Below, piece by piece: positions 46,312 to 64,000 of a stretch of 64,000 nt of DNA. The DNA is from Cellulomonas sp. Root485. GTDB lineage: Bacteria > Actinomycetota > Actinomycetes > Actinomycetales > Cellulomonadaceae. The position numbers and the translations under genes are program-made. The stretch's first letter is position 1. Every line of letters begins with the position of its first letter. Location: the NCBI RefSeq assembly GCF_001426705.1, contig NZ_LMFC01000001.1, positions 843,102 to 907,101 of the forward strand, written 5' to 3'. The notes under the pieces were generated by a model. The model did no database searches and was not told the DNA's origin. It worked only from the letters and a program-made list of their open reading frames with translations.

Positions 46312-46340
46312 CAGGCACGACGGGGGGTCCGTCGTGCCTG
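46312..46340. terminator. Strong terminator after the aldehyde dehydrogenase gene
   Basis: CAGGCACGACGG (46312-46323) pairs perfectly over 12 bp with 46329-46340 around the loop GGGGT. It closes the KduI operon. Confidence 0.8.
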
Positions 46341-46525
46341 TTCGTGCGCCCGGAAACGGCTCGGAGATTCATGTATCTGAACCATTTCACGTTTCTGTTC
46401 ACAAATCAGGATCAGGTTCTTGCATATGTGCGATATCCGACAGTACGTTCCCTGAGGACGAGACCCGCTGGTGCGCCTGCGGCTCCGTCCTGAGTCGGTC
46501 TGAGTCCACGATCAAGGGATCAACG

Positions 46526-49500
46526 ATGAACCTGCGACGCCGATCTGTTCGTCCTCGACCTTCGGTCCTGCGCCTCGTCGCGCTGGCCGCCGCACTCGCC
46601 GTCGCCGTCCCCGCGCTGGCCGCCCCGGCAGCCGCGGCCGTCGACGACGACGTGCTGAAGGTCCTCCTCTTCTACAAGCCGAACTTCCACGCCTCGCACG
46701 TGCAGGCGCGGCAGGCCGTGCGCGACCTGGCGACCGAGCTGGCTGGCGAGTACGACAAGACCCTCGAGATCCAGGAGACGGAGGACCCCGCGGCGTTCAC
46801 GACCGCGAACCTGGCGACCGTCGACGCGATGGTGTTCGCCCAGACCGGTGGGGTGCTCTTCGACGCGGCCCAGCGCGCCGCGCTCGAGGGCTACATCCGG
46901 GGCGGTGGCGGGTTCATGGGCCTGCACTACACCGGCTGGTCGGTGGGGCAGAGCGAGCACGACGTCAACCCGTTCTACGCCCGCCTCGTCGGCGCGATGT
47001 CCGAGGGGCACCCGGAGAACCCCGCCGTGCGCCCGGGCCGCGTCGTCGTGAGCGACGTGCAGCACCCGCTGACGGCCGGGGTCCCGACGAGCTTCACGCG
47101 CAGCGACGAGTGGTACGACTGGACGGTCAACCCCGCCCCCGACGTGCGTACCCTGCTCCTCGCGGACGAGGCGTCGTACGGTGGCGGCCGGCAGGGCACC
47201 TCGCACCCGATCACGTGGTGCCAGGAGATCGACGCCGGCAGGTCCTGGTACTCCGCGATGGGCCACGAGGGCACGGCGTACTCCGAGCCGGTCATCCGCA
47301 CGCAGATGCGCAACGGCCTCGCCTACGCCAGCGGTCTGCTGCAGGCCGACTGCTCGGCTCCGTCCAAGGAGGCGGGCGGCGCCTGGAGCGACGTCACGCC
47401 GTGGCCGCTGATGCCCATCAACATGGCGCTCACCTCCGACGGCACGGTGCAGTCCTTCGGCAGCGTCGGCGGCTGGGGCACCGACGCCGCGCCGTACGAC
47501 TGGACCGGCAACAGCACGATCACGCAGGGCGGCCAGATGGAGGTCGACGTCTGGGACCCCGCCCAGGAGCGCACGCTGGCGAACCTGCGCACCGGGATCC
47601 TGCCGAACACCACGTACACCGACCTGTTCTGTTCCATGCAGGTCCAGAACCCGCACGACCACTCGACCATGACGGTCGGCGGTGACGACGGGCTGGGCGG
47701 CAACGCGCCCAACGACGCGGCCATCGGCGTCACCAGCTACACCACCAACAACGGGCTCCAGAACGAGGCGCCCATGAACTTCCCGCGCTGGTACCCGACC
47801 GGCACGACCATGCCGAACGGCGACATCGTCGTGCAGGGCGGCAGCCTCCGAGGCGGTCCGGGCGGACCCGGCGTGCTCACCCCCGAGATCTACACGCCCG
47901 ACGAGGGCAGCGGCTGGAAGACCCTCGACGGCGCCCGGAGCCCGGTGGCGTACGGCGACGGCGGCGCCGACCACGCGGGTGCGGACGAGAACCGCTGGTG
48001 GTACCCGCGGGCGTTCGTGACCCCGGGCAGCGGCACCCTGTTCAACATCAGCGGCACGCAGATGTTCGAGCTCGACCCGAGCGGCAACGACGGCACCGGC
48101 GAGCTCACGCTGCGCGGCACCCTGCCGGCCGGCATCGCCAACCAGGGCGCCGACGGCAACCCCGTCGGCGCGACCTCGACGGCCACGATGTACCGCCCGG
48201 GCAAGATCCTGCAGGTCGGCGGCGGCTGGTGGGGCAACGGTGGCGGCCCGGACGGTGCGCGCGCCGGCTTCACGGTCGACATCACCGGTGGCGCGGCCAA
48301 CCCCGTCATCGCACCGACCGAGCCGATGGCCTACCAGCGCCACTGGGCGACCTCGACGGTCCTGCCCGACGGTGACGTGCTGGTCACCGGCGGCGGCCGG
48401 GAGAACAACGGCAACGGCGGGTACGTCACGAACGCGGAGATCTGGGACCCGGAGACGGGGGAGTGGACGACGGTCGAGGCACCGTACGAGCACGCCCGGC
48501 TCTACCACTCCGCTGCGTTGCTCCTGCCCGACGGCCGCGTGATGGTCGGCGGTGGCGGTGCACCCGGTCCGCGCAGCTACACGGACGTGGAGTACTACTC
48601 CCCGGCGTACCTGTTCGACGGCCAGGAGCTCGCGCAGCGGCCCGAGATCACCGACGCCCCCGAGGCCATCGGCTACGACGGCACGTTCGGGATCGGGACG
48701 TCCGGTGACGTCTCTCGCGTGACCCTGGTCCGCAACGGGTCGGTGACGCACGGTTTCAACAACGACCAGAACTTCCAGGACCTGGAGTTCACCCAGGTGC
48801 CCGGCTCGGGCGAGGTCACCATCACGGCACCGCAGGACGGCACCTACGCCCCTCCGGGCGCGTACATGCTGTTCGTCTTCGACGCGGACGGCACCCCGTC
48901 GGTCGCGTCGATCGTCGACATCGACCCCGAGGTGGCGATGGACAAGCGGACCCCGCAGGTCGTCGACCAGTTCGAGTACCCGCGCCTGCCCGCCGACTGG
49001 CGCGGCGGCAACCCCGCCGCGGTCATCGACGTGGCGGCGGGCAACGGCCGGATGGCGCCGTGGACCGTCGACAGCCAGGTCCAGCTCGTGCGCGGCACCG
49101 CGCCGGGCCAGGGTGGTCTCGGCCTCACCGGCTACCACGTCGCCCTGGGCGGCTCGGGAAGCCTCGAGCGCACGCTCACGGGCCTCGAGCCCGACCGTGA
49201 GTACCGGATCTCGCTGCGGTACGCACGCGACAGCCGGTCGGCGGCCGGGTCAGGACCCGGGACGGCCGCGCTGTCGGTCGGCAGCCTGAGCACCACGCTC
49301 ACGGCGACGACGGACACGCCGTCGCAGAGCAGCGGACCGATCACGTTCGGCACGTACGTCGGGACCTTCACGGCCACGGCGCGCACCGAGACGCTCACGC
49401 TCGCCGGTGCGGGTGCCGGCCTCGTGATCGACGACCTCGTCGTCATCGGCGTCGACCCGGGTGTCGGCGACGTCCCGGTCCACTACGAGTTCGAGGAGGG

Positions 49501-51982
49501 CGAGGGCGCCTCGGCGGCCAACACGGGCACCGACTCCACGGTCGGGGCGGCGACCCTGACCGGCAACGCCGGCTGGTCCGCCGCCGGTGCCCTCGGCGGT
49601 GCGCTCGACCTGTCGGGCGGCTCCAACGCGAACGCCGTGGACCTGCCGGACAACCTGCTGCAGGGCGAGGAGAGCTTCTCCACCTCGTTCTGGGTCCGTC
49701 CCGACACCAAGGCGAACTGGATCGGACTGTTCCACCTCGGCGACGGGCTGGAAGGGGCGGGCAGCTTCTTCCAGATCCAGATGCAGACACAGGCGGCGGG
49801 GAACACCGGCCTGGCGGCCACCTTCAAGGCGAAGGGCAGCGCTCTGCAGGAACGCGTCTACGCGACGCCGACCAAGGACGTCGTCGCCGACCAGTGGAAC
49901 CACGTGGCGTTCACCCGCGAGGGCGCGACCGGCACGCTGTTCCTGAACGGTGTGGCGGTCGCGAGCCGGAACGACCTCACGATCGACATGGCCGACGTCG
50001 GGCCCACGTCGAACAACTGGCTGGGTCGCAACGGGTTCCCCGACCCCGCGTACGACGGGCTGATGGACGACGTCCGCCTCTACACGTCCACGCTGTCGGC
50101 GGACGACGTGGCAGCCCTGTACGACGACGGCACCGCGCTGCGCACCACGACGACGCTCACGGCCGACCCGGCCTCCCCGTCGCCGTTCGCGGAGCCGGTG
50201 GCCTTCACGGCCGCCGTCGAGGGCGAGGACGGCCAGCCCGCCGGCGGCACGGTCGCGCTGTGGGTCGACGGCGTCGCCGTCGGCTCGACGGTGACCCTGG
50301 CGGGGGGGACGGCCACGTTCCCCGGCGTCACCCTGACCCGGGGCGACCACCAGGTCGAGGCCCGGTTCACGGCCGCCGACGGCTGGCGGGACTCGACCGG
50401 GACCCTCACGCACACGGTCCAGGGGCCACCTCCGGGATCGGGTGTACCCGTCCGGTACGCCTTCGACGAGGGGACCGGCACGACGGCCGCCAACAGCGGC
50501 CTGGACCAGTCGATCGGGGCGGCGACGCTCCAGGGGAGCACCGGCTGGGCAGCGGGCGGCAAGTTCGGACCCGCACTGTCCCTGCCCGGTGGCGGCTCGG
50601 CCACCGGCAACCACGTGCGGCTGCCGGACGACGTCCAGGCGGGCATGGACGACGAGTTCAGCGTGTCGGTGTGGGCACGGCCCGACGTCCTGCCGGGGTG
50701 GGTCCCGCTCGTGCAGATCGGCAGCAGCACGGACACGTTCTTCCTGCTGCAGTCGAACACCAACGCCGCGGGTGCCACCGGGTTCGCCGCGACCTTCAAG
50801 AAGGCCGGGGCAGCCAACCAGGAGCGCCTGACGCTGGGTGGCGGCAACGACCTGCCGCTGAACCAGTGGACGCACGTGGTCTACACGCACAGCGGCACCA
50901 CCGGGAAGATCTACTTCGACGGTGAGCTGCGGGGCACCCGGACCGACTTCACGCTCGACATGAGCGACGTCGGGGTCGCCGGCAGCACCACCGCCAACCT
51001 GATCGGTGGCACCAGCTGGCCGGACGGACGGTTCGACGGACTCGTCGACGAGTTCCAGCTGTTCGGCTACGCGCTGACCGAGGAGCAGATCGACGGGCTG
51101 TTCGCCGGCCCGCCGCCCGCGAACACCGCTCCTGTCGGGGTCGTCGACTCCTACACGGCCAGCGAGGACGACGCCCTGTTCGTCGCTCCGCCGGGCGTCC
51201 TGGCCAACGACACCGACGCCGAGGGCAACCCGCTCACGGCGACCGGCGCCACGCAGCCGAGCCACGGTGACCTGCTGCTGGCGGCATCGGGGTCCTTCAC
51301 CTACACCCCCGACGCCGGGTTCTCCGGCACGGACACCTTCACGTACACGGCGAGCGACGGGACGCTCACCTCGCCGCCGGTGACGGTGACCATCACGGTG
51401 GAGGCGGACGTCGACCCCGGACCGGTGACCACCACGGTCACCGGGACGGCGAAGACCTTCACCTTCGGCAAGGCCGGTGCCGTCGTCGCGACGGTCGCGC
51501 CGGCCACGGCCACGGGGACGGTCACGGTGCTCCTCGGAGACCGCATCGTCGGGTCGGGCGCGGTGTCGGCGGGCTCGGTCACGATCCCGCTGCCGGCGAA
51601 GTCCCTGCCGACCGGGGACCACGTGCTCGCACTCCAGTACTCCGGGGACCCGACCCACGCGGCCTCGACAGGGACCGTGCCGGTGACGGTGCGCAAGGTC
51701 CTGCCGGTCATGGAGGTCAAGGCGCCCGCCGAGGTGAAGAAGGGGAAGCGCCCCACGGTCAGCGTGACCCTGCTGGCCTATGACGACGTGCTCGTCACCG
51801 GCACGGTCACGGTCGCGGTCGCCGGTGGTGTCTCGATCACCGCCCCTCTGGTGGACGGCAGGGTGGCCGTCGAGCTCCCGAAGGCCACCACGGTCGGCGT
51901 GCTGGACGTCATGGTGACCTACAACGGCAGCAGCGTGGCCAGGAAGGTGGAGAAGGCCCTCACCATCACCGTCATCAAGTAG
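46526..51982 (+). CDS. Secreted ThuA-copper radical oxidase multidomain protein
   Basis: The 1818-residue protein has a signal peptide (about 1-38, ending APAAAA). Domains in order: ThuA-like (about 40-275), galactose/glyoxal-oxidase-type kelch propeller (290-690), DUF1929-type Ig-like cap (710-805), a beta-sandwich (812-980), LamG-like (982-1200), Ig-like repeat (1206-1298), second LamG-like (1305-1528), Big_9-type (1532-1630) and two Ig-like repeats to the end. All copper-radical residues can be placed: Cys369 (LFCSM) and Tyr423 (RWYPT) for the Cys-Tyr cofactor, Tyr660-His661 (LYHSAA) and His742 (VTHGFNND). Spacing agrees with galactose oxidase (228, 272, 495/496, 581). It should oxidise an alcohol or aldehyde group on a carbohydrate and make H2O2. 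AAGGGA precedes ATG 46526. No sortase motif or C-terminal membrane segment is seen. Confidence 0.88.
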   Translation: MNLRRRSVRPRPSVLRLVALAAALAVAVPALAAPAAAAVDDDVLKVLLFYKPNFHASHVQARQAVRDLATELAGEYDKTLEIQETEDPAAFTTANLATVDAMVFAQTGGVLFDAAQRAALEGYIRGGGGFMGLHYTGWSVGQSEHDVNPFYARLVGAMSEGHPENPAVRPGRVVVSDVQHPLTAGVPTSFTRSDEWYDWTVNPAPDVRTLLLADEASYGGGRQGTSHPITWCQEIDAGRSWYSAMGHEGTAYSEPVIRTQMRNGLAYASGLLQADCSAPSKEAGGAWSDVTPWPLMPINMALTSDGTVQSFGSVGGWGTDAAPYDWTGNSTITQGGQMEVDVWDPAQERTLANLRTGILPNTTYTDLFCSMQVQNPHDHSTMTVGGDDGLGGNAPNDAAIGVTSYTTNNGLQNEAPMNFPRWYPTGTTMPNGDIVVQGGSLRGGPGGPGVLTPEIYTPDEGSGWKTLDGARSPVAYGDGGADHAGADENRWWYPRAFVTPGSGTLFNISGTQMFELDPSGNDGTGELTLRGTLPAGIANQGADGNPVGATSTATMYRPGKILQVGGGWWGNGGGPDGARAGFTVDITGGAANPVIAPTEPMAYQRHWATSTVLPDGDVLVTGGGRENNGNGGYVTNAEIWDPETGEWTTVEAPYEHARLYHSAALLLPDGRVMVGGGGAPGPRSYTDVEYYSPAYLFDGQELAQRPEITDAPEAIGYDGTFGIGTSGDVSRVTLVRNGSVTHGFNNDQNFQDLEFTQVPGSGEVTITAPQDGTYAPPGAYMLFVFDADGTPSVASIVDIDPEVAMDKRTPQVVDQFEYPRLPADWRGGNPAAVIDVAAGNGRMAPWTVDSQVQLVRGTAPGQGGLGLTGYHVALGGSGSLERTLTGLEPDREYRISLRYARDSRSAAGSGPGTAALSVGSLSTTLTATTDTPSQSSGPITFGTYVGTFTATARTETLTLAGAGAGLVIDDLVVIGVDPGVGDVPVHYEFEEGEGASAANTGTDSTVGAATLTGNAGWSAAGALGGALDLSGGSNANAVDLPDNLLQGEESFSTSFWVRPDTKANWIGLFHLGDGLEGAGSFFQIQMQTQAAGNTGLAATFKAKGSALQERVYATPTKDVVADQWNHVAFTREGATGTLFLNGVAVASRNDLTIDMADVGPTSNNWLGRNGFPDPAYDGLMDDVRLYTSTLSADDVAALYDDGTALRTTTTLTADPASPSPFAEPVAFTAAVEGEDGQPAGGTVALWVDGVAVGSTVTLAGGTATFPGVTLTRGDHQVEARFTAADGWRDSTGTLTHTVQGPPPGSGVPVRYAFDEGTGTTAANSGLDQSIGAATLQGSTGWAAGGKFGPALSLPGGGSATGNHVRLPDDVQAGMDDEFSVSVWARPDVLPGWVPLVQIGSSTDTFFLLQSNTNAAGATGFAATFKKAGAANQERLTLGGGNDLPLNQWTHVVYTHSGTTGKIYFDGELRGTRTDFTLDMSDVGVAGSTTANLIGGTSWPDGRFDGLVDEFQLFGYALTEEQIDGLFAGPPPANTAPVGVVDSYTASEDDALFVAPPGVLANDTDAEGNPLTATGATQPSHGDLLLAASGSFTYTPDAGFSGTDTFTYTASDGTLTSPPVTVTITVEADVDPGPVTTTVTGTAKTFTFGKAGAVVATVAPATATGTVTVLLGDRIVGSGAVSAGSVTIPLPAKSLPTGDHVLALQYSGDPTHAASTGTVPVTVRKVLPVMEVKAPAEVKKGKRPTVSVTLLAYDDVLVTGTVTVAVAGGVSITAPLVDGRVAVELPKATTVGVLDVMVTYNGSSVARKVEKALTITVIK

Positions 51983-56172: not shown

Positions 56173-58986
56173 ATGCAGCTGCCGCTTCTCCTCGCGGGTC
56201 CGATCCTGCGTCGGGTCGACCCCGGGCTCGTCGCGGTCCAGGTGGTGCTGAGCGAGCCGGCCGACGTCCGGCTCACGGTGTACGAGGGCCGGGTGGCGTC
56301 CGACACCACCAACCCGCCGTTCGCGACGAGCAACGACCCACCGGACCCCGACCTGGCCGCGCCGCACCCCGGCGAGAAGACGGTGCGGATCGGGGAGCAG
56401 CTCCACCTCGGACTCGTCACGGCCCGGCTGCCACCGGCGTCCGGCAGGGTCTTCCAGTCCGACCGGCTCTACTCGTACAACATCACCATCACGGGCGCCG
56501 CGCAGACCAGGACGGACCTCGCCGGGCTCGGCCTGCTCGGTGCGCACACGGTCAGCGGGGTCGAGTGCGGACCGCTCGGCTACGCCGACCGCATGCTGCC
56601 GTGCTTCGCCCTGCCCCCGACCGAGCTGGCCGACCTGCGGCTCGCGTACGGCTCCTGCCGCCGCCCGGGGTACGACGACGGCGACGCCCTGGCGTGGATG
56701 GACGAGTACCTGAACGAGCGGTTCGACGACCCGCGGGGGCGGATCCACCAGCTGTTCCTCGGCGGCGACCAGATCTACGCCGACGACGTGGACTCGCTCA
56801 TGATGCTGCGGACCGCGCAGCTCGGCGTGGAGCTGATCGGCGCCGACGGGGGAGTGCCCCGCGAGCGCGTCAAGGTCAACCAGGTCCTGCGCAGGCCGCC
56901 GACACCCCAGCCGGACCCGGCCGACCCGAACGCCGCCTACACGCCCGAGACCCCGCAGGAGACCGAAGCGGCGGGAGACCTGCCGGCCGGGCCGCCGCAC
57001 TTCCCGGTCGGCGACCGGCTGCGCCTGACCACGATCAGCGGGCAGCTCACGAGCGTCGACGGGTCGAACCACCTGATCTCCCTCGGTGAGTTCGCCGCCG
57101 CCTACCTCCTCGCGTGGTCGCCGGCCTGCTGGGGCGAGGAGGTGCCCGGCGCCGAGCTCCTGGCGCCCGGCGCGGCCACCGGCCCGGCACTGCGCTGGCT
57201 GGACCGGCCGAGCGCCGACCAGGACATCGACCTGCCCCCCGCCGAGGTCCCCGAACGCATCCCGCAGCACCTGTACGCCGACAAGGCGACGTTGGCCGAG
57301 CGTGCGAAGAAGGAGGCGGCGAAGTCCGACAAGAAGCGTCAGAAGGAGGCCGACGACGCCCGGCGATCCCGTCTTCGGAGCCATCGGGTGCACCGGGAGT
57401 TCCTGCTCGGGCTCGGGCGGGTGCAACGCGTGCTGGCCAACGTGCCGACGTACATGATGATCGACGACCACGACGTCACGGACGACTTCTTCCTGAACCC
57501 GATGTGGCGTCACCGCGTGCTGGGGACGGCCCTCGGGCAGGTGATCCTGACCAACGGGATGCTCGCGTACGCGCTCTTCCAGGACTGGGGGAACAACCCG
57601 GTCCGGTACGACCAGGTCACCACCCCGGAGCGGCCCGAGCTGGGCGGACAGCTCCCGGGTGACCTGCTGGAGCTGGCGGCCACGCTGTTCCCGGGATCGG
57701 CCACCGGTCCCGACTCCGCGGCGTTCGCCGCGATCGGCCTCATCTTCGGGCACAACCTGGAGAACGAGCCCCTTCCCGACGGCCGGTACGGGATGGTCGA
57801 CGCGCCGATGACCTGGCACTTCACCGTCGACGGCCCGAAGCACGTCGTGGCCGCCCTGGACAACCGGACGCGGCGCAGCTACGTCGCGGAGATCGGCCCG
57901 CCCGGCAACGTCACCCCGGAGGCGCTCGTCGACCAGCTGCCGCGGCCTCCGCTGCCCGCAGGCCGCGAGGTGCTCGTGGTGATCGCCCCGCTCCAGGTGA
58001 TCGGCCCGCCGGTGATCGATGAGATCGTCGCCAAGGCCATCTACCGGATCTTCGACCTGTTCGACTCGGAGCTGACCGACCCGGCGTCGGTCTCCGGCAA
58101 GCGCCGCATGCCCGGGACGAACCCCGACGCCCTGGAGACCTGGGCCTTCGACCCGATCACCTTCGAGCACCTCCTGGCCCGGCTCGCGGAGCACCCGCGC
58201 GTCGTCGTGCTGTCCGGCGACGTGCACAACGCCGCGTCCAACCTCATGAGCTACTGGCGCGGCACCGCGGACCATCCCGCCCGGATCGCGCAGTTCACGT
58301 CCAGCGGGTTCAAGAACGTCATGCCCGTCTACCTGCGGGCGCTCGACCGCAGCGCGATGCTCCTGCAGGAGCTGGTGCGGGCACGGCTGGGCGTGGAGCG
58401 GCTCGCCTGGACCCGACCGGACTCCGACCTGGTGCTGCTCCCGGACGGGCAGACCGAGGCGGACCTCGTGGCGGCGACACGGGCACGGCTGTTGCGCAGC
58501 CCGGTGCTGCTGGCCACGCACGGCTGGCCGGACGGCTCTCGGCTCAACGACCTCAAGCCGCCGGACTGGCGCTGGAAGGTGACGCCTCTGATCGACCAGC
58601 GGCCGGACGTCGAGCGACCGGCACCGATCCGGGCGCTGCCGCTGGACGACGCGGCGATCGAGGCGCAGCTCGCCGACCCGGCGACGGCGTTCCCCGCGAT
58701 GCGGGCCGTCGCCGCCCGGCACCAGGTCGCGCTCGACCGGATGCGGAACACCCGGCAGATCATGTTCCGGTCCAACTTCGGGATCTGCCGGTTCGAGCAG
58801 GACGGCGACGTGGTGACGGCCGTCAACGAGGTGTACACGTCGGCCGTCGACCCCGAGACGCAGCTCCCCGTCCTCGGCCCGTACATGGTCCACCGGGCGT
58901 CGCTGGGTCCGGAGGTCGAGGCGCCGCCCGAGGAGCTGCGCCAGGCCGTGCTGAGCCGCGTGCCCGTCCCGGAGCCGGAACCGTGA
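56173..58986 (+). CDS. PhoD-like metallophosphoesterase, large
   Basis: The 937-residue protein keeps the core motifs of PhoD-type phosphatases: AYGSCRRPGYDDGD (about 157-170), GGDQIYADD (197-205), MMIDDHDVTDDF (428-439) and LSGDVHNA (680-687), which supply metal-binding Asp, Asn and His residues. Typical PhoD enzymes are about 450-550 residues and exported. This one has no signal peptide, a highly charged Lys/Glu segment at about 374-400 and long insertions between the motifs, plus a 240-residue C-terminal extension. ATG 56173 has GGGGGCAGG upstream. Its stop overlaps the next start (GTGA), so it is coupled to the DUF6603 gene. Cytoplasmic action on a phosphodiester or lipid-type substrate is possible; the target is unknown. 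Confidence 0.82.
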   Translation: MQLPLLLAGPILRRVDPGLVAVQVVLSEPADVRLTVYEGRVASDTTNPPFATSNDPPDPDLAAPHPGEKTVRIGEQLHLGLVTARLPPASGRVFQSDRLYSYNITITGAAQTRTDLAGLGLLGAHTVSGVECGPLGYADRMLPCFALPPTELADLRLAYGSCRRPGYDDGDALAWMDEYLNERFDDPRGRIHQLFLGGDQIYADDVDSLMMLRTAQLGVELIGADGGVPRERVKVNQVLRRPPTPQPDPADPNAAYTPETPQETEAAGDLPAGPPHFPVGDRLRLTTISGQLTSVDGSNHLISLGEFAAAYLLAWSPACWGEEVPGAELLAPGAATGPALRWLDRPSADQDIDLPPAEVPERIPQHLYADKATLAERAKKEAAKSDKKRQKEADDARRSRLRSHRVHREFLLGLGRVQRVLANVPTYMMIDDHDVTDDFFLNPMWRHRVLGTALGQVILTNGMLAYALFQDWGNNPVRYDQVTTPERPELGGQLPGDLLELAATLFPGSATGPDSAAFAAIGLIFGHNLENEPLPDGRYGMVDAPMTWHFTVDGPKHVVAALDNRTRRSYVAEIGPPGNVTPEALVDQLPRPPLPAGREVLVVIAPLQVIGPPVIDEIVAKAIYRIFDLFDSELTDPASVSGKRRMPGTNPDALETWAFDPITFEHLLARLAEHPRVVVLSGDVHNAASNLMSYWRGTADHPARIAQFTSSGFKNVMPVYLRALDRSAMLLQELVRARLGVERLAWTRPDSDLVLLPDGQTEADLVAATRARLLRSPVLLATHGWPDGSRLNDLKPPDWRWKVTPLIDQRPDVERPAPIRALPLDDAAIEAQLADPATAFPAMRAVAARHQVALDRMRNTRQIMFRSNFGICRFEQDGDVVTAVNEVYTSAVDPETQLPVLGPYMVHRASLGPEVEAPPEELRQAVLSRVPVPEPEP

Positions 58987-61900
58987 GCGCCGGGTCGGTG
59001 CTGCGCGGGATCGCGGACGAGGTCGTCGACTTCGTCACCTTCGTCGCGGACCTGCTCGGCCGGCCCGAGGCGCGCAGCGCGGTGCTCGCCGACCTCGGCG
59101 CCGCGCCGGACGCGACGACGAAGAAGCTCGTCCTGCCGGAGGCGCCGCTCGCGGCGATCACGGCGTACCGCGCCCAGGTCGACCCGGACCTGCAGGCGGA
59201 CGTCGAGGCACTCGGCAACCTCGCGCTGCTGGTCGGGGCGGTCATCGACCAGATCGAGGCGTGGGAGGGGACCGACTGGGCGGGTCGCGGCGACACCTTC
59301 GTGAACAGCCTGCTCGACCTGCTGGGCAGCACCTACGTCCGGCGCCGCTGGCCCAAGCTGTTCCTGGTGATGCAGGCGATGTCGATCACGTCGGAGCTCA
59401 CTGCGTCGCTGGCGCCGGGGGAGCAGGCGCACGACCGGTTCCTCCAGGCGTTCGGCACGATCTTCTCGTTCGTCTGGAACCCCGGGCGGACCCTCGACGA
59501 CCTGGACGACACGCAGCCGGGTGCCGAGGGCAGCACCCTGAACACCATCCGCGACACGTCGTTCCTCGTCGTCGACGGCCTGATCCGCGGCATCGTGGCG
59601 GCGATCGCGGTGGCCGACCAGACGCTCGACGCGGACTCCCTCAACGCGCTCGGGGACGTGGTCGTCGGCTGGGACGCCGTCGCGCTCGACGTGGACTCAC
59701 CGGTGCGTCCGACGGCGGCGGACGTCCTGTCGGGTCGGATGGTCTCGCTCGCGCTGCGGCGTGACGGCGACACCGACGCCGAGCAGCTCCGGGTCACGTG
59801 GATGTACCTGCCCCGGCGTCTCGGTACCCCCGACCGCCCGCACCAGCTGTTCCTCGCGCTCGGCGGCACCCTCACGCTCGACGAGGTGCTCAACCCCGGC
59901 GCCGACAGCCCGACGTGGCACTTCCGGGTCGAGATCCGCAGCGACGCCGGCGCTGCGCTGCTCATCGGCGGCGAGGAGGGCGTGCAGGCCAACGCCGACG
60001 CCGCGACCTCCGCCGTGTCGGTGAGCTGGAGCGCCGTCCCCGACGAGACCGGGATCAGCTACGCCCTGCCGCGCGCGACCGGGACCCGGCTCGAGCTCGG
60101 CGAGATCGCCGCGGTGCTCACGCTCGGGGCCTCGGGGGCGCGGGTCCTGTTCCGGCTCGACCACTGCGCCCTGGTGATCGACTCGGCCGACAAGGACAGC
60201 TTTCTGCGCAAGCTCCTCGGCGGCCGGCCGGTGCGGAAGGTGTTCTCCCTGGGCCTCGGGTACGACGCCAAGCTCGGGTTCATCCACGAGGTGCACGTCT
60301 CGTCGTCGGTCGACGCGACCGGTCCGGAGCCGCCCTTCAGCTCCTCCGGACCGGCCGGTCCGCCCGCGGTCGAGATGACCCTCCCGCTGGGCGGCGGCGG
60401 GCTGCTGGGGATCAACGTCCACGAGGTGGTGCTGCGGCTCGCGGGCAACCGCGCCGACGCGCCCGAGACCGGCTGGGCGGTGGCGGTCGGCGCGCTGGTC
60501 TCGTTCAGCACGCAGATCGGCCCCGTCTACATCCGCGTCGACCGGCTGGGCCTGTTCGCCTCCATCGACACCATGACGCCGTCCGAGGACCGCAACCAGC
60601 GGCTGGTCCAGGCCGACGTGGACGCGACCCGCCCGACGGGGATCGCCCTCGACCTGCGGACCGGACCGGTCAGCGGCGGCGGCACCATCCAGTTCGACCC
60701 GACCACGGGGGACTACGTCGGCGCCCTGGTCCTGCGCGTCGGGAAGCGCGTCACCATCACGTGCGTCGGGCTCGCGTCGACGAAGGACCGCGAGGGCAAC
60801 GACGTCACGTCGTTCCTCCTCATCGGCACCGTCGAGCACCTCGGCCTCAGCGCGGGCTTCATCACGTTCGACGGGTTCGGGCTCCTCTACGCCGCCGACC
60901 GCACTCTCGACGTCGCCGCGGTCCGCGCAGCCCTGCCCTCGGGGCAGCTCAAGCACATCCTCTTCCCGGCCGACCCCGTCAAGCACCTGCCGGAGCTGGT
61001 CTCGGCCCTGCGGACGTTCTTCCCTGCCCGGGAGGGCACCCACATCTACGGCTTCCTGGTGAAGATGACGTTCGGCAGCGGGCAGCCGCTGCTGCGCGCC
61101 GACCTCGCCCTGATGCTCGAGCGGGACTCCGTGAAGGACTCGAGCCGGCTCCTGGTCCTCGGGCGGGTCTCCTCGGTGCTCCCGCAGGACAAGAACCCCC
61201 TCGTCACGCTCAACCTCGACGTCGTGGGCGTGTTCGACTTCGACACCGGGTCCGCCGCGCTCGACGCCGTCCTGTACGACTCGAAGCTCTGCGGCCGCTT
61301 CGTGCTGACCGGCGCGGCGGCGTTCCGGCGTGAGCGCGGCCAGGGGTTCGCGCTCGCGATCGGCGGGTTCAACCCCCGGTTCACGCCGCCGGCGAACTTC
61401 CCGGTGGTCCCGCGGGTCACCGTGGCGCTGACCACCGGCGACAACCCGCGGCTGGTCATCGAGGCGTACATCGCCATCACGTCGAACACCCTGCAGTTCG
61501 GCGCCAAGGCGTCCCTGTACGCCGCGGCCTACGGCTTCAGCCTCGAGGGGTACATCGGGTTCGACGTGCTCGTGACGTTCTGGCCGCCGCACTTCATCGC
61601 CGACTTCGCCGCCGGGGTGCAGCTCAAGCGCGGCTCGCGGAACCTGTTCAAGATCGACGTCAAGGGCATGCTCGAAGGGCCGATCCCGCTGCGGGTCGCG
61701 GGGAAGGCGACGTTCGGCATCCTCTGGTGGGACTACACCGTCTCCTTCGACAAGACCCTCATCGGCGGGGGCGGGTCGCCCGTCACGGAGACGATCGACG
61801 TCGTGACCGAGCTGCTCGCCCGGCTCAACGACCCGCACAGCTGGATGACCGAGCTCCCGGCGTCGGCGACCCAGGTGGCCGGTGTCCGGGGTGCGCCGCG

Positions 61901-62423
61901 GACCGAGGGACTGCAGCTGCACCCGCTGGGCCGGCTCGTGGTGCAGCAGGGGTTCGTCCCCCTGAACACCGCGCGCGAGATCGACCGGGTCGGCGGCGCC
62001 GTGCCGCGCGACGCCCGCCGGTTCGCGATCACCGACCCCGTGATCGGCGGTGCGGTTTCCAGCGTGTCGCCGGTCGGGGACGAGTTCCCGGACAGCCAGT
62101 TCTTCGAGATGAGCGACGCCGAACGTCTCGCGGCCCCCGGTGTGGTGGTGCGCGAGGCGGGGGTGAGCTTCGGGAACGACCGGTACGCCTCCGACGCCTC
62201 GGCCGGGGTCGCGGAGCCGTTCCGGTACACCGAGATCGTCGTCGGGCCGGACGGCGTGCCCGTCGTGCTGCCCGACCCGACGCCGGCGGAACCGGGACAC
62301 CTGCGGGCCGGTCTGCGGCTCGCCGCTGCGGTGCGTGCGAGCACCCGATCCGCCGTCGCCGAGCGCTACGCCGGGCAGGAGCGACCGGACGCGCCCCGGC
62401 TGGCGGGGCTGGTGAGGTTCTGA
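58983..62423 (+). CDS. Large DUF6603-domain protein
   Basis: This 1146-residue protein has an alpha-helical N-terminal part (about 1-230) and a long beta-rich remainder. A DUF6603-like region lies at about 640-925 and includes GFGLLYAADRTLDV, FGAKASLYAAAYGFSLEGYI, FDVLVTFWPPHFIADF and ILWWDYTVSFD. There is no signal peptide and no clear membrane helix. The C-terminal 200 residues contain Gly/Ala/Asp-rich links and ASTRSAVAERYAG. GTG 58983 is coupled to the phosphoesterase stop, and its own stop shares one base with the next ATG. DUF6603 has no assigned function that I know. Repeated amphipathic beta strands suggest a structural or lipid/polymer-contacting role, which is speculation. Confidence 0.75.
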   Translation: MSAGSVLRGIADEVVDFVTFVADLLGRPEARSAVLADLGAAPDATTKKLVLPEAPLAAITAYRAQVDPDLQADVEALGNLALLVGAVIDQIEAWEGTDWAGRGDTFVNSLLDLLGSTYVRRRWPKLFLVMQAMSITSELTASLAPGEQAHDRFLQAFGTIFSFVWNPGRTLDDLDDTQPGAEGSTLNTIRDTSFLVVDGLIRGIVAAIAVADQTLDADSLNALGDVVVGWDAVALDVDSPVRPTAADVLSGRMVSLALRRDGDTDAEQLRVTWMYLPRRLGTPDRPHQLFLALGGTLTLDEVLNPGADSPTWHFRVEIRSDAGAALLIGGEEGVQANADAATSAVSVSWSAVPDETGISYALPRATGTRLELGEIAAVLTLGASGARVLFRLDHCALVIDSADKDSFLRKLLGGRPVRKVFSLGLGYDAKLGFIHEVHVSSSVDATGPEPPFSSSGPAGPPAVEMTLPLGGGGLLGINVHEVVLRLAGNRADAPETGWAVAVGALVSFSTQIGPVYIRVDRLGLFASIDTMTPSEDRNQRLVQADVDATRPTGIALDLRTGPVSGGGTIQFDPTTGDYVGALVLRVGKRVTITCVGLASTKDREGNDVTSFLLIGTVEHLGLSAGFITFDGFGLLYAADRTLDVAAVRAALPSGQLKHILFPADPVKHLPELVSALRTFFPAREGTHIYGFLVKMTFGSGQPLLRADLALMLERDSVKDSSRLLVLGRVSSVLPQDKNPLVTLNLDVVGVFDFDTGSAALDAVLYDSKLCGRFVLTGAAAFRRERGQGFALAIGGFNPRFTPPANFPVVPRVTVALTTGDNPRLVIEAYIAITSNTLQFGAKASLYAAAYGFSLEGYIGFDVLVTFWPPHFIADFAAGVQLKRGSRNLFKIDVKGMLEGPIPLRVAGKATFGILWWDYTVSFDKTLIGGGGSPVTETIDVVTELLARLNDPHSWMTELPASATQVAGVRGAPRTEGLQLHPLGRLVVQQGFVPLNTAREIDRVGGAVPRDARRFAITDPVIGGAVSSVSPVGDEFPDSQFFEMSDAERLAAPGVVVREAGVSFGNDRYASDASAGVAEPFRYTEIVVGPDGVPVVLPDPTPAEPGHLRAGLRLAAAVRASTRSAVAERYAGQERPDAPRLAGLVRF

Positions 62424-64000
62424 TGTCCGAGCCGAACCTCGTCTTCCTCCCGTGGGCCCGCCGCGGGGGTGCGCTCGACCTGCCCGAGGACCGGCCCGAC
62501 GGGCATCCGGCGAGCCACGCGTCGGCGACTGCCGAGGTGCGCGTCAACGGCGCCGGTCCCGCGAGCGTGTCCGTCCAGCTCCTGGGCCCCGGCGACGTCA
62601 CCGCACTGGCCCCGCAGCAGGTCATCCGGACCGACCCGGCGCCCGGGACGCGCACCTTCGAGTCCAACTACCTGGCGCTCGTGGAGCTGGACGAGCCGGC
62701 CCTGCCCTGGTTGTTCACACCGGCCAAGGCGTCGGCGGGACGGCTCCGACCCTGGCTGTGCCTCGTCGTGGTCCGCGAGCAGCCCGGCGTGCGGCTGGCG
62801 TCGCCGACGCGCGGTTCGCTGCCGGTCCTGACGGTCGGCGCGCCGGCCCGGCCGGAGGACGAGCTGCCCGACCTCGACGAGAGCTGGGCCTGGGCGCACG
62901 CGCAGCTCGCCACCGACGCATCGATGACGGACGCGGCGCTCGCCGACGCGCTCGCCGCCGACCCGGGCCGCAGCCTGTCCCGGCTGGTCTCCGGGCGCCT
63001 GCTGGCGGAGCAGACCGAGTACCTCGCCTGCGTCGTGCCCACCTTCGAGGCGGGCCGGCGGACGGGGCTGGGGGACGACCCCGGAACCGCCGAGGGCCCG
63101 GCGTGGCGCCGCGCGCCGGGCATGGGGCCGGTCGAGCTGCCCGTCCTGCACCACTGGCGGTTCGCGACCGGCCCGGCGGGCGACTTCCAGTCACTGGCTC
63201 TCGCGATCCGTGGGCGCCCGGTCGAGGACGGCTTCGGCACGCGGGCAGTGGACCTGTCCACGTCGGGGCTCGGGATCGCCGGCGCCGACGACACGCAGGT
63301 GCTGCTCGCCGGCGCCCTGCTCGCACTGGACGCTCCGGCCGAGCGGTGGTCGGACCCGGCGATGGCGGGACGGTTCGCGACCGCCCTCGTCGACGTGCTG
63401 AACACCCCCGACCAGCAGCCGGCGGCCAACCCGCTGCTGGCGCCGCCCCGCTACGGCCAGGCGTACGCGACGGCTCCGGCCCTGGACCCGGCCGCGAGCG
63501 CACGCTGGTACGAGCGGCTCAACACCGACCCGGCGCACCGGGTGGCCGCCGCGCTCGGCACGCTCGTGGTGCAGCAGCAGCAGGAGACGCTGGTGGCCGC
63601 GGCCTGGGACCAGGCGGCGGACCTGCACGCCGCGGGCCGGGTCTTCGGGCTCGCCGCGCTCGGCCTCGCGGTCGCCGACAGCCTGCACCGGCGGCACGTC
63701 GTCCCGCTGCCGCCCGAGGCCGGCCTGTTCGTGCTCGCGCCGCTGCGGGCCCGGCTCCTGCAGGCGGCCCCTGCCACCGGGGGAGCCAGCTTCGCCCAGC
63801 AGTGGGCGCAGTCGCAGCTGCCGGACCAGGCGCTGAGCCCGGTGGTCCGGCGCGTGACCCGGTCGCGCGGTCCGGTGGTGAGACGGGTCGGCCGGACCGG
63901 GTCGATCGGGAGGATCGACGTCCTCGACCGGATGGCGCCGATCTCGCGGATCGGCCGCGAGCTCACGCCGCCCGCCGGCCCGCTCACGTTCGAGGCAGGG
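62423..64000 (+). CDS. Unrecognised large protein, partial at the window edge
   Basis: ATG 62423 lies inside the previous stop (TGATG), and the frame stays open for 526 codons to the end of the window. The protein begins MSEPNLVFLPWARRGGALD and includes RPWLCLVVVREQPGV, DESWAWAHAQLA and LHHWRFATGPAGDFQSLA. It has no signal peptide or membrane segment and is rich in Ala, Pro and Arg. I do not recognise a family. Tight coupling to the DUF6603 gene implies a shared function. The beta-rich first 150 residues followed by helical parts suggest a multidomain structural protein. Confidence 0.7.
   Translation, partial: MSEPNLVFLPWARRGGALDLPEDRPDGHPASHASATAEVRVNGAGPASVSVQLLGPGDVTALAPQQVIRTDPAPGTRTFESNYLALVELDEPALPWLFTPAKASAGRLRPWLCLVVVREQPGVRLASPTRGSLPVLTVGAPARPEDELPDLDESWAWAHAQLATDASMTDAALADALAADPGRSLSRLVSGRLLAEQTEYLACVVPTFEAGRRTGLGDDPGTAEGPAWRRAPGMGPVELPVLHHWRFATGPAGDFQSLALAIRGRPVEDGFGTRAVDLSTSGLGIAGADDTQVLLAGALLALDAPAERWSDPAMAGRFATALVDVLNTPDQQPAANPLLAPPRYGQAYATAPALDPAASARWYERLNTDPAHRVAAALGTLVVQQQQETLVAAAWDQAADLHAAGRVFGLAALGLAVADSLHRRHVVPLPPEAGLFVLAPLRARLLQAAPATGGASFAQQWAQSQLPDQALSPVVRRVTRSRGPVVRRVGRTGSIGRIDVLDRMAPISRIGRELTPPAGPLTFEAG

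Follow-up and report, generated by a model that had tools for sequence, protein, structure and literature searches.

Extracellular contractile injection systems (eCIS, including the Photorhabdus virulence cassettes, PVC) combine a conserved core with exchangeable effectors that do not use the Sec pathway. In the accessible part of one source, eCIS are assigned to a wide range of bacteria and to Euryarchaeota, and polymorphic toxin systems are described as exchanging a C-terminal toxin (PMC3482391). Nucleoside triphosphate (NTP)-dependent conflict systems are portrayed, likewise in the accessible part of the text, as having interchangeable effectors and beta-propellers (PMC7159879). Here, we describe an operon at the right end of a 64,000-nucleotide (nt) stretch of Cellulomonas sp. 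Root485 (contig NZ_LMFC01000001.1, positions 843,102 to 907,101; hereafter the window), in which a gene for a PhoD-like metallophosphoesterase precedes four genes encoding a DUF6603 (PF20248) protein and the proteins FLPW (named after the start of the protein), LPVR and ARQW. In our tentative judgement, these five genes may well constitute a mobile modular cassette, in which an invariant four-protein core presents or delivers a hydrolase that can be exchanged, probably outside the cell that makes it.

The four-gene core

A first-pass annotation, made from the letters of the window, had described three long coupled genes as parts of one multi-gene system that runs on past the window. The three are indeed present as open reading frames (ORFs) where they had been placed, and the third, credited with more than 526 residues, is completed in the next 20 kb of the genome (L003), which was used to read the operon past the window edge and in which LPVR and ARQW follow:

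56173..58986, + strand: slot gene, PhoD-like metallophosphoesterase with large insertions, 937 amino acids (aa), assigned from ORF and motifs
58983..62423, + strand: core gene 1, DUF6603 (PF20248) protein, 1146 aa, Pfam match of 325.8 bits
62423..65236, + strand: core gene 2, FLPW, 937 aa, of which 526 codons lie within the window (to 64000)
65233..69306, + strand, right of the window (L003): core gene 3, LPVR, 1357 aa
69308..71047, + strand, right of the window (L003): core gene 4, ARQW, 579 aa
71054..71148: two perfect inverted repeats (hairpins), directly after ARQW

The five genes are joined by overlaps (GTGA, TGATG, ATGA) or a 1-nt spacing, including the two overlaps recorded in the first pass, namely GTGA (4 nt, 58983-58986) between the PhoD-like and DUF6603 genes and TGATG (62421-62425) between the DUF6603 and FLPW genes. 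The G+C content at third codon positions (GC3) is 0.95-0.97 for operon genes 1, 2, 4 and 5, and the automatic ORF list had antisense ORFs replacing gene 3. In pairwise comparison with Cellulomonas sp. Leaf334, the ratios of nonsynonymous to synonymous substitution rates (dN/dS) are 0.27, 0.22, 0.21, 0.20 and 0.13 for the genes in order, and these low values mean that all five look constrained.

By comparison of gene order and co-occurrence among genomes, the four core genes were shown to behave as one co-traveling unit. A genome scan with the ARQW alignment returned 329 relatives; counting over the best 80 of these 329 loci, LPVR adjoins ARQW in 79, the exception being L093, where ARQW lies ~240 bp from the contig end. 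FLPW is present in all 64 loci that have >6.5 kb upstream, and of the 60 loci with >8.9 kb upstream, 44 show DUF6603 within the 10 kb flank, while the other 16 may be flank-limited. From 47 of the 80 ARQW loci, 46 genomes could be reached, and PF20248 was found in every one. In a family sample of 150 genomes, ARQW, LPVR and FLPW each occur in eight, and these are the same eight genomes, hence the families co-occur rather than being rarely found together, as the first pass had expected of a true system; nor do the next genes refute it, being the conserved LPVR and ARQW instead of housekeeping genes. DUF6603 occurs in those eight and in G107. In G101, G139 and G047, three of these eight, the cassette genes are spread over two or more contigs, which leaves their adjacency incompletely shown. 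PhoD-like matches at E < 1e-100 are found in three of the eight core genomes, and six other genomes have short weak matches only.

The order DUF6603-FLPW-LPVR-ARQW recurs across seven bacterial phyla and among haloarchaea, whose plasmids also carry the core. The families are sparse: DUF6603 was found in 12 of 396 genomes of the window's phylum, and scans of two other phyla gave ARQW in 3/188 and in 4/201 genomes, with two partial matches among those four.

Several loci depart from this arrangement. Both very long DUF6603 ORFs (L034 and L179, >3100 aa each) and shorter ones occur in another setting (L034, 1-14021; L179; L032; L042), further unrecognized proteins adjoin them where the contig continues, and L034:1805-3622 matches the FLPW profile (8e-24). 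In the myxobacterial locus L172 (7137-19524, genome G777), a 1310-aa ORF that combines trypsin and FGE-sulfatase domains with a NACHT domain scoring below cut-off precedes LPVR-ARQW, and a metallophosphoesterase and an ABC ATPase are encoded farther upstream. FLPW and LPVR are split into 2-3 consecutive genes in a Halobellus plasmid (L165, 2471-15953) and a Rhizobium plasmid (L167, 8038-15926), which suggests domain boundaries.

The first-gene slot and its enzymes

The gene in front of the core was surveyed in the upstream regions of 40 loci from 38 genomes, many of which are closely related to the window, and this comparison established it as a swappable slot that holds at least seven enzyme types. 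PhoD-like proteins occupy the slot in 25 regions, peptidase M64 in three (L130-132) and phospholipase D (PLD) in two (L127, L161). Single regions carry a subtilase (S8; two copies, L147), a trypsin-like protease (two copies, one below the Pfam cut-off, L163), an Rv2525c glycosidase-like protein (L139), a DUF2515 protein (L125) and an alpha/beta hydrolase joined to DUF6603 (L124). No family was recognized for two further slot genes (L141, 263 aa; L128, 944 aa), the latter protein being caspase-like by eye only and having no Pfam match. Outside the 40 regions, a second alpha/beta hydrolase-DUF6603 fusion (L175), two more M64 genes (L035, L036), further PhoD-like slots (L028, L037, L164, L169, L171, L173, L177, L178), a slot gene annotated as peptidoglycan-binding (L166) and two slot genes of no recognized family (L033, 1008 aa; L041, 284 aa) were found; an SLT/peptidoglycan-binding gene that lies two genes upstream in L041 was left out of the count.

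Catalytic motifs are present in four slot types: besides those of the PhoD-like proteins (below), there are two HKD motifs in each of the two PLDs, HExxH in all five M64 proteins and GDSGS in both trypsin-like proteins; a simple pattern for the subtilase catalytic serine motif found none in the slot subtilases. The two fusions are single ORFs of 2841 and 2729 aa with a continuous frame, in two genomes, and their GC3 is 0.85-0.95 after the first 200 codons (0.69) in L124 and 0.89-0.97 throughout in L175. One Nitrospira genome contains two cassettes, with a PhoD-like slot in one and a PLD in the other. The phosphoesterase had been proposed beforehand as a possible effector of the system; it does occupy what behaves as an effector position, although it is not fixed there, being one of the enzyme types listed above. 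Overall, the observation made in the first pass is thus confirmed and its interpretation partly supported.

Exchange of the slot can be followed on a quick ARQW tree of 45 rows, which comprises 42 of the 80 loci together with L028, L036 and the window, and on which L036, L028 and L113 form long branches; 38 loci were left off because their slot fell beyond the contig end or had not been retrieved. On this tree, 13 changes are required for the 11 slot labels (minimum 10), compared with a mean of 15.8 after shuffling, and none of 200 shuffles gave a value as low. The division into PhoD and non-PhoD slots takes six changes, at least three of which are forced by starred branches, and M64 takes three, at least two of them forced. 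Phyla interleave on the tree, as Arthrobacter groups with Polyangium (full support) and a Rhodobacteraceae row falls with the actinobacterial group of the window, which points to horizontal spread.

The slot protein of the window had been taken for a PhoD-like phosphoesterase with a charged segment at residues 374-400. The segment is present, and so are GDQIYADD, DDHDVTDD and SGDVH, which are metal-site motifs of the metallophosphoesterase core and bear out the label PhoD-like, but the match to PF09423 (23.1 bits, E 4.6e-5) lies below the curated Pfam cut-off of 27. Among the aligned PhoD-like family members, 16 of 19 match PF09423 at E <= 0.001, and G198, D199, Q200, D205, N423, H433 and G682 are invariant in all 19; in one of them (L145), GEHDISPG replaces DDHDVTDD. 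Against PDB sequences, the PhoD profile gave one weak match (6pb3_A, E 7e-4) and the window sequence alone none. The window protein hence resembles PhoD-like phosphatases in its metal-site motifs and in the family matches of its relatives, and differs from them in its length of 937 aa, its large insertions, its score below the Pfam cut-off, the lack of a signal peptide (by the heuristics described below) and its coupling to the core operon.

Around the operon, a scan for T-tailed terminators gave none, and the opposite-strand gene after the hairpins resembles a glycoside hydrolase family 10 (GH10) xylanase by eye. Immediately to the right of the operon lie two genes that resemble each other and, by eye, GH10-type xylanase genes; they face opposite ways (L003 7154-8611, -; 11479-13017, +). 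Within the window, positions 46334-51982 hold a secreted-looking gene of 1882 aa with ThuA-like, galactose-oxidase/Kelch-like, LamG-like and Ig-like repeat regions (by eye).

PhoD-like enzymes are classically enzymes of phosphate starvation, and together with the two xylanase-like neighbors this would accord with a metabolic or nutrient-scavenging complex, in which the core scaffolds the breakdown of phosphate compounds, lipids or polymers by an enzyme matched to the habitat. Such a role is improbable, given that proteases, a lipase-like fold, PLD and glycosidase-like folds are all found around one core, that no signal peptide was found and that the flanking genes vary in number and size among loci.

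Protein properties and possible modes of action

Among the five proteins of the window's operon, the only match above cut-off in Pfam, NCBIfam, PHROGs and PADLOC is that of the DUF6603 protein to its Pfam family, which covers profile positions 8-501 of 502 and far exceeds the cut-off of 27 bits; the first pass had already named this protein as DUF6603. FLPW, LPVR and ARQW match no model above cut-off in these four collections, and even at E up to 1 PADLOC gave no family for any of the five. Searches of PDB sequences with the family profiles gave nothing usable, with best E-values of 0.77 for DUF6603, 0.074 for ARQW and 0.064 for LPVR, and no match up to 1 for FLPW. By profile comparison, FLPW has no credible homology to LPVR, ARQW or DUF6603; a weak similarity was noted between ARQW columns 101-209 and LPVR columns 813-914 (100 columns, probability 32.7, P 4.6e-4).

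Structure prediction was carried out for ARQW and DUF6603. The ARQW model (predicted local distance difference test score, pLDDT, 80) has no clear match in the PDB, which does not prove a new fold; its best Foldseek E-value is 0.046 and its best second-look match has Z 3.5 (53 residues, root-mean-square deviation (rmsd) 2.9 A). The DUF6603 model (pLDDT 72; predicted template modeling score, pTM, 0.54) is predicted to consist, at residues ~254-927, mostly of a long run of antiparallel beta strands. Five Foldseek matches reach E <= 0.001, all of them barrel proteins from outer membranes or S-layer complexes, and the best second-look PDB match, 6r2q_B, reaches Z 14.5 over 357 residues at an rmsd of 13.4 A. 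Both the strand run and these barrel matches would suit a DUF6603 whose beta structure inserts into membranes or binds lipids and thereby acts as a pore or lipid-transfer device, by which the hydrolase crosses or attacks membranes. We consider this explanation improbable: the rmsd of 8-17 A among the 50 matches listed and TM-scores of <=0.19 for the five Foldseek matches mean that the strand arrangement alone is shared and a barrel is not demonstrated, the pTM of the model is 0.54, no signal peptide was found, and the family occurs in monoderms and archaea.

The absence of signal peptides, also claimed in the first pass for the genes within the window, was judged by hydropathy and motif heuristics only, which gave no clear signal peptide in the five operon proteins or in 11 whole proteins of three plasmid loci. 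The best N-terminal 12-residue hydropathy means of the window proteins are 0.45-2.01, with DUF6603 (2.01) the least clear case, compared with 2.29 for a lipoprotein-type control from the window. Across the five families, 211 profile-matched stretches, which can miss N-termini, were screened with a hydropathy cut-off for membrane segments; one passes it, as do two membrane proteins of the window. Mean cysteine content is 0.15-0.34% in the four core families, 0.51% in the PhoD-like family and 0.87% in 174 neighboring ORFs. Surface-type domains appear in a few core proteins: Kelch repeats at the C-terminal end of a DUF6603 protein (L144) and in a separate gene between DUF6603 and FLPW (L176), FG-GAP in FLPW (L083, just below cut-off; L166, above), a lamin tail in one haloarchaeal ARQW, and halo_surf_dom (NF045517) above cut-off in one haloarchaeal LPVR.

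From the modularity described above together with these properties, we infer the assembly, location and target of the cassette products as follows. DUF6603, FLPW, LPVR and ARQW would be four giant soluble proteins that form an invariant core assembly, and the first gene would supply the interchangeable hydrolase, here the PhoD-like metallophosphoesterase, for the core to present or deliver. The proteins may assemble as one complex within the cytoplasm, which would then leave the cell by lysis or a non-Sec route, or be displayed on its surface, so that the hydrolase could act on envelopes or macromolecules of other organisms, and the beta-propeller, lamin-tail and haloarchaeal surface domains of a few core proteins may serve attachment. 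Action outside the cell is favored over intracellular immunity because the slot enzyme types attack envelopes, proteins and lipids, and because the core is cysteine-poor and sometimes has surface domains and the five proteins include no NTPase family.

Intracellular immunity systems, on the other hand, typically deploy swappable proteases, PLD and hydrolases, and the core might instead sense an invader and set off the slot hydrolase within its own cell, as in abortive infection. The patchy distribution described above, the cytoplasmic appearance of the proteins, and the trypsin-NACHT-FGE neighbor at L172 agree with such a role, as do the matches of one slot subtilase to the PADLOC subtilase model and, weakly, of one PLD to DrmC. 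We nevertheless regard immunity as unlikely: PADLOC matches neither the five proteins nor seven of the nine slot proteins tested, including the PhoD-like protein of the window, no NTPase family is found in the five, and surface-type domains as well as glycosidase-like or peptidoglycan-binding slot proteins count against it.

Several observations weigh against a delivered or displayed hydrolase as set out above. An adaptor in the form of a domain common to the slot proteins is unsupported, as phmmer found none between proteins of different enzyme types, and so is a slot-specific N-terminus of DUF6603, which does not segregate cleanly by slot type (a match is shared by 172 of 392 same-slot pairs and 145 of 643 different-slot pairs, a comparison confounded by phylogeny). 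No recognized slot gene is present in 3 of the 40 regions (L126, L144 and L149, the last with a 418-aa upstream ORF only, which looked spurious by eye). The clustering of slot labels on the tree means that slots also persist within lineages, and the 16-row clade around the window is entirely PhoD-like. DUF6603 is not confined to the core, occurring in another setting in 3 of the 12 genomes of the phylum (L032, L034, L042), and DUF6603 and FLPW were not detected beside LPVR-ARQW at L172. The N-terminal signal tests cover just the five window proteins and 11 plasmid-locus proteins, low cysteine content bears only indirectly on life outside the cell, and propellers are reported for intracellular conflict systems as well (PMC7159879, accessible part). 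Finally, no immunity gene is evident and no conserved small gene is conspicuous beside the core, although no search was aimed at one; a missing immunity gene fits a target unlike the producer, yet it fits other roles too.

Comparison with known systems

With eCIS, the cassette shares a conserved core and exchangeable effectors. Tail, baseplate or AAA+ genes, which the first pass had named as examples of possible companions, did not materialize: Pfam, NCBIfam and PHROGs gave no hit to a sheath, tube, baseplate, AAA+ or PVC-metallopeptidase family in the five proteins (farther genes were not scanned systematically), and a phage-tail or injection-system identity was rejected on this ground. Among viral structures, ARQW has one match under E 0.001, which is not usable (probability 0.13, rmsd 33.6 A). 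One relative of 44 residues lies on a viral contig (L123). A Bacteriophage sp. record from human feces marked UNVERIFIED (MT835531.1, 10100-40042; L168) contains FLPW-LPVR-ARQW together with bacterial-looking genes (by eye), and this single phage-record match is probably a mislabeled bacterial contig. For the Tc toxin complex, no TcA, RHS or TcB family match was obtained in the five proteins; TcdB_toxin_midN matches the FG-GAP part of the L083 FLPW below cut-off (16.2 vs 24.8 bits).

Like polymorphic toxins, the cassette exchanges an enzymatic module on a conserved carrier, but this module precedes the carrier, either as a gene of its own or fused to the N-terminus of DUF6603, rather than forming the carrier's C-terminus, no immunity gene is evident (by inspection, as noted above), and the carrier families are unrelated by profile searches. 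Interchangeable effectors and beta-propellers are likewise shared with NTP-dependent conflict systems, from which the cassette differs in that no NTPase (STAND, MoxR or similar) is found in the five proteins, the lone NACHT match, below cut-off, being in the protein beside the divergent locus L172. The accessible part of the main text of PMC7159879 names no M64, PhoD, Kelch or phospholipase D, that of PMC3482391 no M64, PhoD, Kelch or lamin tail, and neither DUF6603 nor PF20248 is named in the open-access (PMC) literature searched, which yielded nothing on this system.

Taken further, and held with some reserve, it is possible that the cassette encodes a machine common to bacteria and haloarchaea, whose soluble four-protein carrier would be unrelated to phage tails, Tc toxins and known secretion systems and would take up one of many unrelated hydrolases, encoded in the slot or fused to DUF6603, for delivery to other cells or to surfaces. 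If the core does serve for delivery or display, it would be a new kind of modular protein machine, in which the slot enzymes offer direct, testable activities and DUF6603 would gain a functional context. In their window copies, three of the four core proteins match no model above cut-off, yet the four genes travel together across seven bacterial phyla and haloarchaea. On the evidence of its core families, and as far as open-access papers show, the cassette is rated as categorically new, although pairing a conserved core with swappable effectors is in itself a known principle.

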